This document shows, piece after piece, positions 3,357 to 9,614 of a stretch of DNA of 35,048 nucleotides. The translations under genes and the position numbers were made by a program. Every line of letters starts with the position of its first letter. Position 1 is the first letter of the stretch. Source of the stretch: Planctomyces sp. (GTDB lineage Bacteria > Planctomycetota > Planctomycetia > Planctomycetales > Planctomycetaceae); NCBI GenBank assembly GCA_027483405.1, contig JAIXUU010000369.1, forward strand, positions 1-35,048, written 5' to 3'. The notes under the pieces were generated by a model. The model was not told the DNA's origin and searched no databases. It saw only the letters and a program-made list of their open reading frames with translations.

Positions 3357-4421
3357 ATGGATCTGCGCGCAGCGACTGCCTTCTGGCCCGAATTCAGCGT
3401 GATTCCCAAGCTGGCCTCCGTGCTGATCAGCAGCCTGCTGATCCTCTCAGCCGCTTTGAAATCGTATCAGTCACTGCACGATCTCCTCTATTTCGAGCCA
3501 GCCTGGAGTGCGAGCGCTTTCGAGCTCTTTTCGGTCTCAATCCTCGTCTTTGTCGCCACTCTGGTTCTGACCAACTTTCAATCCCGCGAGGTCTGGATCC
3601 TGGCGGCACTCCTGATGACGATCCTGGCGGCTTTTGCACTCTCGGCAGCACTCGCGGGGGAAACGACCTGCGGCTGCTTCGGAAAACTGAGCTTTCGCCC
3701 GTGGAGTATCGTGATTCTCGATGTCAGCATTATTGCGGTCTCCTATCTGTGTGCCATCGTTTCCAGGCCTCACTCGGGAAGTCTGTTGCGACCGGTGGCC
3801 CGAGCAGCGGGAGAATCGCTTCTCATGGTCACGCTGATGGTGCTGGCCATTGTCCTGGCGTTATCGATCAGTTGGCCGCATGCGATCTCAGCACAGGCGC
3901 TGACCAGCAGTCATCATCCCATCCCCGCCACGCCGATTGAACCCTCGGTGGAATGGGTCGAGGCCCGCATCCCTGTCCGCAATGTGCGCAGCACACCTGT
4001 GGCGATCGTCGGTAAAGAATCTGTTTGCGGCATCATTCTCGTGACACCGATTCCGCTCGTCATTCCCGCTCAGGAAACGATCTTCCTTGAGATGAAGTTA
4101 AAACTTTTTCCGCATGCCCAACGGGGCGATGGCTCGCTGGCGCTATTCATTGCCGATGAGTCTCACAATGGAGCAGAACTCGTCAACTCTTCTTCGTTCA
4201 GCGAGCTGAATGCGGTCAAGTCTCCCGGCCCGATTCAAAGTCCTTCGGCCGAAGCACAGCCTGTGACTGAAACAGTGAACTTGACCACGCTCCATCAGCA
4301 GCGGCTGCGCCAGGAGCGGCTCGTCTTTTCCGTGGTTCGAGCCTCGCCACCACAAGAGACCATGGCCGAGAAATCGAATGAGACCAGTGCAGAGAAGTTG
4401 ACAGGTGATTCTGTTCGCTAG
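3357..4421 (+). CDS. MauE/DoxX-like membrane protein with CGCFG motif and exported C-terminal domain
   Basis: A 354-residue protein with several membrane segments in the first half: about 15-36, 56-76, 79-100 and 118-137, and a further one near 155-175. TTCGCFGKL (C105, C107) lies between the third and fourth. This CGCFG loop is typical of MauE/DoxX-type redox-associated membrane proteins, which in the methylamine dehydrogenase system assist disulfide formation on a Cys-rich subunit. The second half (about 180-354) is hydrophilic, presumably outside the membrane, and ends in a charged tail after QERLVFSVVRASPP. ATG 3357 follows GGGAG by six bases. The next gene, 37 bases on, encodes a secreted eight-cysteine protein, which suggests a redox partner. 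A 35-codon relic of a second copy lies at 7061-7168. Family level is fairly sure; the substrate is inferred. Confidence 0.72.
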   Translation: MDLRAATAFWPEFSVIPKLASVLISSLLILSAALKSYQSLHDLLYFEPAWSASAFELFSVSILVFVATLVLTNFQSREVWILAALLMTILAAFALSAALAGETTCGCFGKLSFRPWSIVILDVSIIAVSYLCAIVSRPHSGSLLRPVARAAGESLLMVTLMVLAIVLALSISWPHAISAQALTSSHHPIPATPIEPSVEWVEARIPVRNVRSTPVAIVGKESVCGIILVTPIPLVIPAQETIFLEMKLKLFPHAQRGDGSLALFIADESHNGAELVNSSSFSELNAVKSPGPIQSPSAEAQPVTETVNLTTLHQQRLRQERLVFSVVRASPPQETMAEKSNETSAEKLTGDSVR

Positions 4422-4458: not shown

Positions 4459-4758
4459 ATGAAAAGACTCTTCTCACTATCCGCCATTTGCCTCTGTGTC
4501 TGTGCGATCGCGCTGATCGCGAGCGTCTCTGCTGATGATCCTGTGAACGAAGAACCTGGCGATGATCCAACGACTTATGATAATCCTTCATGTAAAAACC
4601 CTTCGTATCATTGTCAACAGAGGGCGCGTCCCTGCAATCTTGGTAATCCGGAAATTTGCGGCGATCCGGTACCGCCAGCAACGGATTGCACCTGTGTTCC
4701 CACTCATGAACCAGAACCGACTCCCAATACGCCAGCCTGTTTCTGTCGAGCCACATGA
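4459..4758 (+). CDS. Secreted eight-cysteine small protein (copy 1)
   Basis: A 99-residue protein. Residues 1-25 form a signal peptide (basic MKRLF, hydrophobic core, cleavage probably after SVSA). An acidic stretch with DD, EE and GDD follows, then eight cysteines: C45, C52, C59, C67, C77, C79, C94, C96. The spacing C-x6-C-x6-C-x7-C-x9-C-x-C-x14-C-x-C and the local motif CNLG-x3-ICG recur in the protein at 7218-7529, so the two are homologous. An even number of cysteines in an exported protein suggests up to four disulfides. AAAGGAAAA lies just upstream of ATG 4459, and the downstream ATG gives a proper signal peptide whereas the longer frame from 4405 does not. It sits directly behind the MauE/DoxX-like gene. 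I do not recognise a named family; function unknown. Confidence 0.75.
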   Translation: MKRLFSLSAICLCVCAIALIASVSADDPVNEEPGDDPTTYDNPSCKNPSYHCQQRARPCNLGNPEICGDPVPPATDCTCVPTHEPEPTPNTPACFCRAT

Positions 4759-4885
4759 CGCGGCACACAGCAATAATGTATGCGAGTATGTCTATGTCAT
4801 TGCTGGTTGTATATTAACAACTCACCTCATAGATAATTGTTCGTTAAGTATCCGATCATTTTCACATTTAAATTGAGAGGTATCC

Positions 4886-5908
4886 ATGTGGCCACAATTG
4901 ATAGTGCTTCTGGCTTTAGTCTTAAGTCATATCGTGTGGCCATTTCATCAAGACATCCTGGCTGGCGACAATCGCGGAACAGCCAGCAGCTACAATTCAA
5001 GCTGGACACCAGAAAAACTCTATGAATGGTGGCAGATCCCTGCGATTCCAGATCGCTTTCAGGTGCGTATTTATGGCACATACCTACAAAACCCGGATAA
5101 GCAAGAAAGCACTAAAACAATCAACTCGGAGATGGGGGTTATGAAAAGCTATATGTGTGGAATCGATGAAATCGATGCCACATACCCTAAAACTGGAAAA
5201 ACCACTTTTTTAACAATGGCGAATCCCCATTATTCATGCAGTCTGGAGCGAATCAAATCTGAGCGTTGGGTCGCCAGGGCGCTCAAAATCAGAAAAGATA
5301 ATGACACGACCAATGTCGTCAATAACCTTTGTGATCGTATTCTCCGAAACCACTGGGGAATGAATATTGGAGTGCACAGACGACTGATTGAACCTGGAGT
5401 CTCTTTGAAACAACTTCCGAATGAAATCTGGAACAATGAGGAGGTGGAAGTGCTTGATGTCACATTCCCTCTGCTTCCTGAAAAAGAAAAAAATCCTTAT
5501 CAACCTGCAAACACGCCGGATCATGCCAGGGTTTACATTTCCCCAGAGCGTTCGTATTGGCCTGTACGCATCGATTATACGCTCGATTATAAATATGAAG
5601 GAGTCCCTTTTCATCGCGAGATCACGGTGGCCTTCGAAGACTGGCAGGAGATCGATGGACAAGTCGTACCACTCCGTAACAAAACCTGGGATCATGGAGC
5701 GCCGACTGTTAAATACCTTCCCAGTGGCGATTGCCTCATGGATGTTTCCAACTGGGACGCCCCCTTCCCCATGGAACAGGCGTATTTGACTTATTACGGC
5801 TTGCCAGAACCGGAGGGGATCTCCCGGGGAATGAGTTGGTGGTGGTGGGTGGTGATCGTTGCTCTGGGATTGGGCGTCATCTTCTTCTGGCGAAAACTTA
5901 GAGCATGA
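4886..5908 (+). CDS. Exported tail-anchored paralog A (YYGLPEPEG family)
   Basis: A 340-residue protein. An N-terminal signal peptide (about 1-27, ending near DILA) is followed by WWQIPAIPDRFQ and a long exported region. A pattern of beta strands, EVEVLDVTFP then HARVYISPERSYWPVRIDY then EDWQEIDGQVVPLR, recalls the LolA/LolB-like half-barrel, but this is only a resemblance. The end is AYLTYYGLPEPEGISRGMSWWWW, a 20-residue membrane span and the basic tail RKLRA. The end is therefore probably anchored with a short cytoplasmic tail. GAGAGG lies five bases before ATG 4886. The stop overlaps the next paralog as ATGAGC, so translation is probably coupled. The base composition looks AT-richer than that of the flanking housekeeping genes. 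No named family recognised. Confidence 0.8.
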   Translation: MWPQLIVLLALVLSHIVWPFHQDILAGDNRGTASSYNSSWTPEKLYEWWQIPAIPDRFQVRIYGTYLQNPDKQESTKTINSEMGVMKSYMCGIDEIDATYPKTGKTTFLTMANPHYSCSLERIKSERWVARALKIRKDNDTTNVVNNLCDRILRNHWGMNIGVHRRLIEPGVSLKQLPNEIWNNEEVEVLDVTFPLLPEKEKNPYQPANTPDHARVYISPERSYWPVRIDYTLDYKYEGVPFHREITVAFEDWQEIDGQVVPLRNKTWDHGAPTVKYLPSGDCLMDVSNWDAPFPMEQAYLTYYGLPEPEGISRGMSWWWWVVIVALGLGVIFFWRKLRA

Positions 5909-6058
5909 GCAGCATCCAGCGCTTCTCAATAAACTCATTAGCAATCGTCTGCATTTCTCTGTTGTCATCGCAGATTAGCGCGGCCCGTGATGACAATTCT
6001 CCAAAATCTTTAACTACTGAATCGCTTTTCGATCGCTGGAAGCTTCCAGCGCTTCCGG
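5750..6058 (+). repeat. 309-bp direct repeat, copy 1
   Basis: This segment covers the 3' end of paralog A and the 5' end of paralog B. It recurs with scattered substitutions at 6751-7059, an exact 1001-base offset with no visible indel. Identity is highest over the YYGLPEPEG and membrane-span codons. Confidence 0.9.
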
Positions 6059-6909
6059 ATCGTTTCCAGCTTGAGGTGAAGCGCACCATTCGTCTGAATC
6101 CGGAGAATCCGCAGGATCAGCGAGTCGCTACCACCATTGGACGTTACAAGTTCCAACCAGGGTATTATGTCTGTGAATCTCCCTCGCCTACTGGTGCAAC
6201 TAGTACAATAACCAGGCTCGTGATCTGTAATCCAGAGTATGCCGCTATGCTGCAAAAAATCGATAGTGGTCGCTGGGTCGTCAAAAGGCTGTCGCCAGGG
6301 CGAAATCATCCGCCGGAACTGACGGTCAACCCCAAAGCGATGCTCTCTCAGCATTCTGGTACAAATGTAGGTATTCGCAATCGTCTGAAAGAACCTGGTG
6401 TTTCCATCACCAAAACGTGGACGGAGAACTGGAATGGCGAAGAAGTCGATGTGCTGGATGTCGCCTTCCCCGAAGCTTCAGAAGAGCAAAAGATAGGCAA
6501 GGGGCCGATCGACTTTCCTCACTCGGCACGACTGTATTTCACAAAGTCAGAAACGTCTGGCCCTGCGCGAATGGAGTTTGAATTGAAATACACACTCGAC
6601 GGAAAAGACTATGTAAGGCCCCTTTCCTTTTCTTATAGTGAACCAAGTAAGGTTGGCGATTTTACACTTCCGTTGAAGTTTGAGGCGTGGCAATTATGGA
6701 GGATCTCCAGGAATGACATTCCCAGCGAGACAGCAGAATTAAACGTTGGCAACTGGGACACCCCCTTCCCCATGGAGCAGGCGTATTTAACTTATTACGG
6801 CTTGCCAGAACCGGAGGGGATCTCCCGGGGAATGAGTTGGTGGTGGTGGGTGGTGATCGTTGCTCTGGGATTGGGTGTCTTCTTCTTCTGGCGAAAACTT
6901 AGAGCATGA
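5905..6909 (+). CDS. Exported tail-anchored paralog B (YYGLPEPEG family)
   Basis: A 334-residue paralog of the preceding gene, starting inside its stop codon (four-base overlap). It has a signal peptide (about 1-27, ending SQISA), then DRWKLPALPDRFQ, NPEYAAMLQKIDSGRWVVKRL, RLKEPGVSITK, NGEEVDVLDVAFP, and the same terminal YYGLPEPEG, WWWW membrane span and RKLRA tail. The middle differs considerably from paralog A, yet the last 150 bases of the two genes are almost identical, and its first 150 bases are almost identical to the start of the broken copy at 6906. This pattern, constant ends with a variable middle, suggests recombination or gene conversion among copies. Probably exported and membrane-anchored; biochemical role unknown. 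Confidence 0.8.
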   Translation: MSSIQRFSINSLAIVCISLLSSQISAARDDNSPKSLTTESLFDRWKLPALPDRFQLEVKRTIRLNPENPQDQRVATTIGRYKFQPGYYVCESPSPTGATSTITRLVICNPEYAAMLQKIDSGRWVVKRLSPGRNHPPELTVNPKAMLSQHSGTNVGIRNRLKEPGVSITKTWTENWNGEEVDVLDVAFPEASEEQKIGKGPIDFPHSARLYFTKSETSGPARMEFELKYTLDGKDYVRPLSFSYSEPSKVGDFTLPLKFEAWQLWRISRNDIPSETAELNVGNWDTPFPMEQAYLTYYGLPEPEGISRGMSWWWWVVIVALGLGVFFFWRKLRA

Positions 6910-7059
6910 GCAACATCCAGCGTTTCTCAACAAATTCATTAGCAATCGTCTGCATTTTTCAATTGGTGTTGCAGATTAGTGCGGCCCGTGATGACAATTC
7001 TCCAAAACCTTTAATTATTGAATCGCTTTTGGATCGCTGGAAGCTTCCCGCACTTCCGG
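6751..7059 (+). repeat. 309-bp direct repeat, copy 2
   Basis: Second copy of the element at 5750-6058, here covering the 3' end of paralog B and the 5' end of the broken paralog. Similarity stops abruptly after CTTCCGG at 7059, the point where the paralog reading is replaced by a MauE-like 3' end. Confidence 0.9.
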
Positions 7060-7060
7060 C
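6906..7060 (+). pseudogene. 5' fragment of a third YYGLPEPEG-family paralog (C)
   Basis: The frame opens at ATG 6906, overlapping the stop of paralog B by four bases. Its first 50 or so codons match the start of B closely (MSNIQRFSTNSLAIVCIF, then SAARDDNSP, then DRWKLPALP). The match ends at 7059, after which the frame runs 17 foreign codons to a stop at 7110-7112. The rest of the gene, about 280 codons including the YGLPEPEG tail, is missing. If translated it would give a 68-residue exported peptide with no anchor. I read it as the left side of a deletion. Confidence 0.8.
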
Positions 7061-7168
7061 GATGCTACCAGTCGTCAAAGAGTCCGCCTGGAGCGGATTG
7101 AGTTTTCCGTGATTCGTGCTCCGGTCTCTCCCACCGCCACCTCTGTGTCGAGGTTGGCCATCCGCTGA
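7061..7168 (+). pseudogene. 3' fragment of a second MauE/DoxX-like gene
   Basis: In the frame beginning at 7061 the sequence reads DATSRQRVRLERIEFSVIRA and continues to TGA 7166-7168, 35 codons in all. It aligns with the end of the MauE/DoxX-like protein at 3357-4421, whose matching part is QQRLRQERLVFSVVRASPP. The shared core ER-(L/I)-x-FSV-(V/I)-RA sits at the same distance from the C-terminus, and an eight-Cys gene follows 49 bases later, as one follows the intact copy after 37 bases. Position and sequence together make a decayed second MauE-like gene the best explanation. The similarity is short, so a profile comparison should confirm it. Confidence 0.65.
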
Positions 7169-7217
7169 AGGGATTGTCTCTGAACGAAGAGTTTGTCACT
7201 CAACTAGGAAACTTGCC

Positions 7218-7529
7218 ATGCGAAGATTTTTCACCCTCGGTTTCGCCTGCTTTTGCCTCTCGACCGCCGCCTTCATCACGAGCGTTTGGGCCGATGACGG
7301 AGAATCGGAAGAAGGAGGTGGAGAAACTACCATTAACGATCTCTGCACCTTACCCTCATTGGACTGCAATAATCGAGGGTCAGCTAGTAATGGCGGTTTA
7401 ATGAATGCGTGTCACCTTGGTGCCGCGGGTATCTGTGGAAATGGCGTTAACCCTGGAACCAACTGCAATTGCGTCACAGCCCTGACATCCACAATTTCAA
7501 GAACAGACTGCTTCTGCGAGGTGAAATAG
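7218..7529 (+). CDS. Secreted eight-cysteine small protein (copy 2)
   Basis: A 103-residue protein with a signal peptide (MRRFF, hydrophobic core, probable cleavage after SVWA), an acidic and glycine-rich stretch, and eight cysteines: C43, C50, C65, C73, C83, C85, C98, C100. The spacing C-x6-C-x14-C-x7-C-x9-C-x-C-x12-C-x-C matches copy 1 except in two loops. CHLG-x3-ICG and NCNCV correspond to CNLG-x3-ICG and DCTCV in copy 1. Start ATG 7218 follows AACTAGGAAACTTGCC, where AGGA is a fair Shine-Dalgarno. Because only the cysteine framework and a few residues are conserved between the copies, a structural, disulfide-held role is likely. Function unknown. Confidence 0.75.
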   Translation: MRRFFTLGFACFCLSTAAFITSVWADDGESEEGGGETTINDLCTLPSLDCNNRGSASNGGLMNACHLGAAGICGNGVNPGTNCNCVTALTSTISRTDCFCEVK

Positions 7530-7701: not shown

Positions 7702-8718
7702 ATGCTGCGAAGTTGCAAAACTGCTATGCAGGTCGCTTTAATGATCTGCTTCTCTATAACATATAATCCGGCCTATTGTGAGGCTACACCTTCGCCGACC
7801 GCCTCTCTTCCGTCTCCAGTAACCCCCGTCTCACTGCAGCGATGGTGGAAGATTCCGAGCTTGCCGGATAAGTTCCAGTATTCGTTGACAATATCAACCC
7901 GTGTAAATCCTGAGAATACAAGTGATGTGCAATTTGCTTCCACCATAAGCCATGTGAAGAAAGCGGCGAGCTATCACATTATGGAGGATCCTTTCCCCAC
8001 AGGACCAAAAACGACTCTAACAAACTTGTTGATCCGCAACTCCCATTACGGGGCCTTATTGAAGCGGGTGAACAATGATCGCTGGGTCTTGACAAAGCTG
8101 GGACTGGGGTCAAATCTTCCGCCCGGCCTGAGTCGGGAACATGATTTCGACGAGTTGCCGCACTTAGGCCAAGCCGCCATCCTCCGCGACCGACTCGGCG
8201 AACCCGGTGTCCTGTTGAAGGAACTCCCGCGAGAAACATGGCGGGGTGAAGAGGTTCGGGTGCTCGAAGCAACCTTTCCCGATGTGCCTGAAGAGCGCAA
8301 AAAGGCGTTACTACCAATCAACTATACTCCTAAAGCCAAATTCTATCTCTCCTCCAAGGTCGATGGAGCACCTGTCCGTATCGACTTCGATTTGAATTTC
8401 AGTTCTAATGGGAAGTCGTATCATCGTCCGATCGCCCATGCGTATAGCGAATGGAGTGAACTCGATGGTTTGAACATTCCCTTGAAGGGTGAGATCTGGC
8501 AGTTGTGGATTTCACCCCTCGACGGACCGCCGATGCAGACTCTCACGTTCGACCACTCGAAGTGGGACGCCCCCTTCCCCAAGGAGCAGGCGTATTTAAC
8601 CTATTACGGCCTGCCAGAACCGGAGGGGATCTCCCGGGGAATGAACTGGTGGTGGTGGGTGGTCGCAGGATGTTTCGTTGTCGCTATCTGGCTGGGCTGG
8701 AAAAGAGTCTCGGTATGA
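7702..8718 (+). CDS. Exported tail-anchored paralog D (YYGLPEPEG family)
   Basis: A 338-residue member of the same family as the genes at 4886 and 5905. It has a signal peptide (about 1-28), a proline-rich linker (SPTASLPSPVTPVS), RWWKIPSLPDKFQ, NSHYGALLKRVNNDRWVLTKL, RLGEPGVLLKELP, GEEVRVLEATFP, the strand pair KAKFYLSSKVDGAPVRIDF, and EWSELDGLNIPLKGE. The end is YYGLPEPEGISRGMNWWWW followed by a membrane span with a different sequence and the tail KRVSV. The tail motif and its flank are nearly identical in DNA to A and B (8563-8663), while the body is divergent. The stop overlaps the start of the pseudopilin gene as ATGA, so the two are probably co-translated. Function unknown. Confidence 0.8.
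   Translation: MLRSCKTAMQVALMICFSITYNPAYCEATPSPTASLPSPVTPVSLQRWWKIPSLPDKFQYSLTISTRVNPENTSDVQFASTISHVKKAASYHIMEDPFPTGPKTTLTNLLIRNSHYGALLKRVNNDRWVLTKLGLGSNLPPGLSREHDFDELPHLGQAAILRDRLGEPGVLLKELPRETWRGEEVRVLEATFPDVPEERKKALLPINYTPKAKFYLSSKVDGAPVRIDFDLNFSSNGKSYHRPIAHAYSEWSELDGLNIPLKGEIWQLWISPLDGPPMQTLTFDHSKWDAPFPKEQAYLTYYGLPEPEGISRGMNWWWWVVAGCFVVAIWLGWKRVSV
8563..8663 (+). repeat. Third copy of the YYGLPEPEG tail-coding cassette
   Basis: About 100 bases matching 5750-5850 and 6751-6851 with only a handful of substitutions, coding for WDAPFPKEQAYLTYYG and the LPEPEG and WWWW residues. DNA conservation here greatly exceeds that of the rest of the gene. It stops at the first membrane-span codons. Confidence 0.8.
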
Positions 8719-9614
8719 ATCGCTCCGGCTTCACATTGATCGAACTGCTCGTCGTGATCGGAGTCATTGTTCTGCTGGTCGCCATCACGCTCCCCGCCGT
8801 CCAGTGGTCACGCCATGCCGCCAAACGTCTGGAATGTCAGAACAAACTCAAGCAGATTGGTCTGGCACTCCACACGTTCGAAGCGTCACATCGCCAGTTG
8901 CCTGTGGGCAAGACCGGCTTAAAAACTAATCCCAAACAGCATTCCATGTCGTGGATGATTCCCATCCTGCCCCATATCGAACAGGCCACTCTCTGGCATG
9001 AGTCTCAAGCCGCTTATCAGATGACAGCCAGTCCCTACGCGAACCCGCCTCATTATCCGTTTGCCCAGGTTGTGCCGGCGTATGTCTGTCCACTTGATGA
9101 ACGAGCGTCGAAAATTCGCAGTGCCTCAACGCTTGATGGAGGTTTCGTCGCCCTCACGAGCTACCTGGGAGTCATGGGAAGAAACCATATGACCGCGGAC
9201 GGTGTGCTGATCTTTGATCAAGTGATCCGGTTTTCTGATATGACCCGCGGCACGAGCCAGACCTTGTGCGTGGGAGAGCGTCCGCCGAGTCCTGATCACA
9301 ATTTTGGCTGGTGGTATACGGGAGTTGGTCAGGAGGGGAGTGGTTCAGCCGACATGCTGCTGGGAATTGAAGAGCGAGTGGCCCAGACGCCGCACAACAA
9401 GTTTATTACCGATGGTCATTGCCCGGACAAACCATATCCCTTTGCACCGGGCAGCCTCGACGAGCTTTGCGATTCCCTCCACTTCTGGAGCCTGCATGCC
9501 GGGGGAGGGAATTTTTTATTCTGTGATGGCAGCGTGCGGTTCATGGCGTATGAATCCGCCGAAATCCTGCCGCTCCTGGCCACCAGGAATGCCGGGGAGG
9601 TTCACGGAGAATGA
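8715..9614 (+). CDS. DUF1559-type pseudopilin
   Basis: A 299-residue protein with a type IV prepilin-like leader: MNRSG then FTLIELLVVIGVIVLLVAIT, where prepilin peptidase should cut before F6. The helix continues into ECQNKLKQIGLALHTFEASH, the usual DUF1559 opening. Near the end is HAGGGNFLFCDG, the H-x9-DG motif of this family, which is greatly expanded in planctomycetes. Such proteins are thought to be assembled or displayed by type II/IV-pilus-like machinery. ATG 8715 overlaps the stop of paralog D by four bases, tying it to the tail-anchored proteins as their last gene. A longer in-frame opening from 8505 is discounted because it would bury the leader. No pilus ATPase or platform gene is in the window. 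Confidence 0.92.
   Translation: MNRSGFTLIELLVVIGVIVLLVAITLPAVQWSRHAAKRLECQNKLKQIGLALHTFEASHRQLPVGKTGLKTNPKQHSMSWMIPILPHIEQATLWHESQAAYQMTASPYANPPHYPFAQVVPAYVCPLDERASKIRSASTLDGGFVALTSYLGVMGRNHMTADGVLIFDQVIRFSDMTRGTSQTLCVGERPPSPDHNFGWWYTGVGQEGSGSADMLLGIEERVAQTPHNKFITDGHCPDKPYPFAPGSLDELCDSLHFWSLHAGGGNFLFCDGSVRFMAYESAEILPLLATRNAGEVHGE

Follow-up and report, generated by a model that had tools for sequence, protein, structure and literature searches.

How did the start of a paralogous gene come to be fused to the last codons of a MauE-like gene, and what did the locus hold before? The question is raised by a 263-base scar (6906-7168) in the window analysed here, the whole stretch of 35,048 nucleotides from Planctomyces sp. 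(GCA_027483405.1, contig JAIXUU010000369.1), in which the entire array occupies the hemC-rpsB interval (G000:C27). G000 denotes the genome under study, and G001, G002 and G003 its genus relatives. We consider the scar probably a product of recombination among tandem copies of a cassette with four parts, the order of which recurs across Planctomycetia: MauE, a Cys-rich secreted protein (CRP), a LolA-fold membrane protein and DUF1559. The features of the locus are the following.

3357..4421, + strand: MauE1, intact MauE-like membrane protein of cassette 1 (Pfam MauE; alignment with 13 other MauE proteins)
4459..4758, + strand: pep1, small Cys-rich secreted protein of cassette 1 (leader kept, mature part hypervariable)
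4886..5908, + strand: paralog A, predicted LolA-fold family, with a C-terminal membrane helix (fold taken from family member D)
5905..6909, + strand: paralog B, with a 3' end of A type (repeat and identity comparison)
6906..7059, + strand: C stub, a further copy of B cut off after codon 51 (DNA identity to B)
7060..7168, + strand: putative relic, 3' end of a lost MauE2, comprising the last strand and the stop codon (profile and DNA/protein match)
7122..7217, + strand: stretch common to G001 (94/96 identical), preceded there by a DUF1559 5' stub
7218..7529, + strand: pep2, small Cys-rich secreted protein of cassette 2
7702..8718, + strand: paralog D of cassette 2 (AlphaFold model, pLDDT 85.1; LolA fold)
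8715..9614, + strand: DUF1559 prepilin-like gene, a hybrid of two copies that remain separate in G001 (Pfam E 3.5e-38; TIGR04294)

The two ends of the array belong to recognizable families. MauE1 matches Pfam MauE (PF07291) with E 5.3e-6 and 27.2 bits, above the curated cut-off of 27, and its C-terminal domain is Ig-like, of the DUF1573 type. The gene at 8715-9614 scores 132.6 bits against PF07596 and 23.7 bits against N_methyl, which places it above the domain cut-off, and it carries the prepilin motif. Between them, the window holds four copies of the paralog (A, B, the C stub and D). The sequence-only reading had described the first half of the scar as the 5' end of a third tail-anchored paralog; the paralog 5' end is real, but the copies are four, and "tail-anchored" is not strictly correct because the model of D has an N-terminal signal helix besides the C-terminal one.

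The junction is real in this genome. The C stub (6906-7059) is identical to the start of B (5905-6058) at 135/153 bases and to B', the counterpart in G002, at 138/153, while the starts of B and B' agree at 149/153; judged by these identities, the stub would either predate the split of G000 and G002 or have changed faster as a pseudogene. Identity to B ends past base 7059, so that the joint lies between 7059 and 7060, within one base of the position 7059/7061 originally proposed, and the frame of the stub continues past it to a stop at 7110-7112. A direct repeat of 300 bases (5744-6043 and 6745-7044, 92%) indicates that a unit made of the end of A and the start of B was duplicated as the end of B and the start of C. 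Moreover, the 3' end of B is of A type, unlike that of B' in G002 (95.8% versus 82.5%), which suggests that an earlier unequal crossover gave rise to C.

Based on these observations, we propose the following history. The locus would once have held a second MauE upstream of pep2, as the relic suggests, and an unequal crossover within the near-identical paralog ends would have produced the extra B copy, C, to which the types of the 3' ends point. A later deletion, probably illegitimate, would have fused C at codon 51 to the 35 final codons of MauE2, taking with it the rest of C, probably a copy of DUF1559 and most of MauE2, and would have placed pep2, D and the last DUF1559 gene behind cassette 1.

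The relatives inform this history in part. A first search of 99 genomes returned close MauE1 orthologues in G001 and G002; G003 is uninformative at the locus, since 376 bases of a short contig precede its rpsB and no hemC was found. In G002, the nearest genome and complete at the site, the order is MauE1, pep1', A', B' and DUF1559, with no second cassette and neither pep2 nor the tail. In G001, the left part comprises MauE1, pep1 with a frameshift, a paralog of B type and the 5' stub of a DUF1559 gene, which is fused to the same tail and pep2; to the right follow a paralog with a frameshift, one of D type, a DUF1559 gene, another paralog and a third DUF1559 gene. The DUF1559 stub of G001 shares 89-90% identity with the 5' ends of the DUF1559 genes in G000 and G002, and its joint, with an overlap of GGTC, falls at about 7122 in window coordinates, some 61 bases to the right of the joint in G000. 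In this same stretch of G001 (L034, reverse strand; about 6953-7441 of the reverse complement), the DUF1559 prepilin leader is in frame with the pep2 precursor, forming a single ORF. The presence of the same tail and gene on a DUF1559 stub in G001 implies at least two different joints, and a DUF1559 copy was most likely lost in G000 too; the loss first proposed, of the rest of C and most of a second MauE-like gene, is borne out as far as the MauE relic goes and is incomplete in these two respects. The DUF1559 genes of G000 and G002 match copy 2 of G001 over most of their length and the copy 3 side past the gene end, so both genes are hybrids from which the paralog between the copies has been lost, and recombination of this kind is frequent here.

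An undeleted arrangement in a related genome was also sought, and none was found: G001 has the DUF1559 stub, G002 is without the second cassette, and an intact orthologous double locus was absent from both. Nor did any of the four genus genomes searched (G003 being broken at the site) contain an intact second MauE. Two complete ancestral cassettes, asserted outright in the sequence-only reading, are a reasonable deduction only.

A different origin of cassette 2 has to be weighed here, namely that pep2 and its neighbours are no ancestral tandem copy but came by transfer from a different lineage, carrying along a piece of the donor's MauE tail and inserting at separate sites in G000 and G001. 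The left joints do differ between these two genomes, the nearest genome G002 has neither pep2 nor the tail, and the shared tail and the pep2 leader have diverged less than neutral sites: only 2/96 bases differ between G000 and G001 over 7122-7217, against 12-20% at fourfold sites and 10-11% in intergenic DNA. It is this unusual conservation of the tail that makes a transfer of the second cassette between lineages possible. However, the genes that flank the segment are the same in G000 and G001, the order pep2, paralog, DUF1559 is kept, the hybrid DUF1559 gene of G002 points to a loss in G002, and tandem units are present elsewhere. We therefore regard transfer as unlikely, and local recombination in the array as the better account. 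The low divergence of 7122-7217 would not be expected of a relic in decay and may reflect gene flow or a regulatory role that has been kept; a promoter scan around the tail gave one consensus promoter-like site against 0.9 expected, nothing above chance.

The second half of the scar is where the identity of the lost gene has to be read. The frame from 7061 reads DATSRQRVRLERIEFSVIRAPVSPTATSVSRLAIR, with its stop at 7166-7168. Within it, RQRVRLERIEFSVIRA matches the MauE residues QQRLRQERLVFSVVRA at 10/16 positions, and at the DNA level 28/35 bases match MauE1 (7085-7119 versus 4308-4342). The match is short (16 residues, 35 bases), with the final 15 codons of the relic lacking a clear alignment to MauE1, and the 35 relic residues by themselves are weak against whole genomes (E 0.30-0.41), which could suggest that the MauE likeness of 7061-7119 arose by chance and that a broken paralog simply stands beside unrelated DNA. 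The non-self matches listed for these 35 residues, however, were only the MauE C-terminus of G000, G001 and G002 and the shared tail of G001. A profile of three genus MauE C-termini found the relic with E 7e-4 among 8969 segments (drawn from 341,686 bases), the next best being 0.14, and its score was reached by 0/20,000 random 36-residue windows, by 0/5474 segment ends and, for DNA, by 0/10,000 random 108-base stretches. When the relic was shuffled, 0, 1 and 1 of 2000 shuffles reached its score against the three MauE proteins (p ~1e-4). The position, strand and stop of the relic also agree with the cassette order, as it lies directly upstream of a Cys-rich secreted protein gene in the same arrangement as the intact MauE. 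We accordingly give a chance likeness very little weight, and the resemblance of this frame to a MauE C-terminus, proposed before any search had been made, withstood the profile test.

The ending itself is informative. The genus MauE has a peculiar C-terminus, with an insertion ahead of the last strand that is absent from 11/11 distant aligned MauE proteins, which supports the reading of the relic as a MauE-like C-terminus of the kind found in this lineage. In the MauE model, which is poor (pLDDT 61), the last strand (residues 317-328) spans the part that the relic resembles. No further MauE relics were found at E 0.05 in the gaps around the cassettes, the single weak match, in a G001 gap, being to D. 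Altogether, we hold with good confidence that the scar contains the remains of a second, lost MauE. That it might instead be an assembly error merging reads of two array copies, as a repetitive array in a genome of 487 contigs could invite, is highly improbable, for the tail also occurs in G001, the chromosome of which is a single contig, and C differs from B at 18/153 sites and so is no collapsed B copy.

The scar itself is ordinary decay of a gene array; the recombining cassette that it exposes is the interesting part. Across 397 genomes of the class, a paralog search gave matches in 26 and a MauE family search (E <= 1e-8) in 206, many of them partial. From these, 40 stretches were taken (20 each from the mixed searches and the MauE search), mostly the higher-scoring places and thus a non-random sample. 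They contain 32 full MauE ORFs, 27 of which have a paralog downstream, the other five lying at most 840 bases from the end of a contig or stretch. A CRP-like ORF occupies the gap behind MauE in 27/32 (25/27 where the paralog is visible), and a CRP ORF with a CxC end in 24/32 (23/27), compared with a background elsewhere in the same loci of 0.087 CRP-like and 0.011 CxC-ended ORFs per 600 bases per strand. In 18 of the 27 cassettes, a DUF1559 gene lies no more than 3.5 kb downstream. The set from the MauE-only search had 21 full MauE, and a paralog followed in every case where more than 840 bases were available (16/16), so the link between MauE and paralog is no artefact of searching with the paralog. 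We also observed that stretches L127, L128, L129, L133 and L141 stop within 840 bases 3' of MauE, as though the cassette were a place where assemblies break.

Tandem arrangements are found well beyond the genus. In a distant planctomycete (L126, G176:C176:52000-69000), four MauE-paralog units lie in tandem; the first and third MauE are intact, each with a CRP, and the second and fourth are partial or split between frames, with no CRP in the scan. Tandem CRP-paralog pairs were seen in L072, with no MauE in the stretch, and in L078, with a broken MauE ahead of them. A literature search on MauE in planctomycetes gave no title on such a cassette among the matches listed, and a search on planctomycete small secreted cysteine-rich proteins, on these together with MauE, or on MauE with DUF1573, found nothing; the four-part cassette is apparently unnamed.

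What distinguishes this cassette is the pattern of its divergence. Up to base 4574, G000 and G002 are 92-99% identical in each 100 bases, and their similarity is high again from about 5741; between these points (4575-5740, the core of pep1 and the body of A) there is no DNA match. The absence of any match between flanks that are nearly identical indicates that the pep1 core and the A body were replaced together, as a block. At the protein level, pep1 of the two genomes is identical over the first 39 residues (39/39) and at 23/58 of the rest, and paralog A at 82/247 positions in the body and 49/51 in the tail. Likewise, pep2 of G000 and G001 agrees at 26/27 of the first residues and 23/70 of the rest, and the two CRPs of L126 have 66/89 residues in common in the first part and 21/58 in the rest. 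The leaders of pep1 and pep2 are identical at 13/27 positions, a depth similar to that of the MauE tails (10/16). By these comparisons, the variable parts of the CRP and LolA-fold genes are exchanged between sister genomes, with leaders and tails near-identical.

These features allow a tentative model, which we consider possible though doubtful: the locus would be a cassette-exchange array that diversifies a secreted CRP, in which leaders and tails serve as crossover anchors, the CRP core and the LolA-fold body are swapped as a block, a shared MauE acts in folding, DUF1559 acts in presentation, and scars such as this one are by-products. For the cassette as such, and as part of our main reading, we propose that MauE would supply disulfide-forming power to the CRP, with MauE1 now serving both CRPs; the LolA-fold protein may handle or display the CRP at the membrane, and the DUF1559 protein may help to assemble or export it. 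Through the scar, a cassette that recurs in planctomycetes comes into view. Its variable parts turn over more rapidly than the surrounding genes, and it connects a membrane enzyme of the disulfide type with both a hypervariable secreted protein and DUF1559, a very large family. It offers a concrete set of partners, open to testing, for DUF1559 and for planctomycete MauE.

The components can be compared with several known systems. The CRP and LolA-fold proteins matched no family in Pfam or NCBIfam, and no Pfam match to the LolA sequence family was obtained for A, B, D and five distant members. The model of paralog D, in turn, is similar to LolA3 (9tp6; Foldseek E 1.4e-9; VIA Z 11.4, rmsd 5.5 over 206), and as modelled for D alone, the paralog family is predicted to fold as LolA/LolB. 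The likeness to LolA/LolB/RseB proteins thus lies in this predicted fold; unlike them, the paralogs have a C-terminal membrane helix with a YGLPEP motif and match no Pfam or NCBIfam family. We take this motif, the helix and the basic end to resemble the PEP-CTERM signal; membership was rejected, as no PEP-CTERM profile matched.

MauE is described in methylamine dehydrogenase maturation (PMC7794033). The systems share a MauE domain and a neighbour whose many cysteines would call for disulfide formation; here MauE, with a two-cysteine motif in its membrane domain, has an additional Ig-like DUF1573-type C-terminal domain (in distant MauE proteins below the Pfam cut-off of 26.1 bits, with 25.7 in L085 and 21.9 in L081), its partner is a small Cys-rich protein, and no other mau families were found among the proteins scanned. 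The same paper describes decRiPPter RiPP candidates of Streptomyces in which a MauE homologue lies beside a predicted precursor with at least eight cysteines (PMC7794033). Those are computed actinobacterial candidates, whereas the present order is recurrent in Planctomycetia and includes LolA-fold and DUF1559 partners. The conserved leader and variable core used to recognize RiPP precursors are found in both pep1 and pep2, and their leader resembles an ordinary signal peptide. Finally, P. limnophila has 68 DUF1559 paralogs, according to PMC10632474. The cassette protein has the N-terminal methylation motif and the H-X9-DG motif of the planctomycete DUF1559 (PF07596) paralogs; ordinary in itself, it differs from the others only by its place in the cassette.
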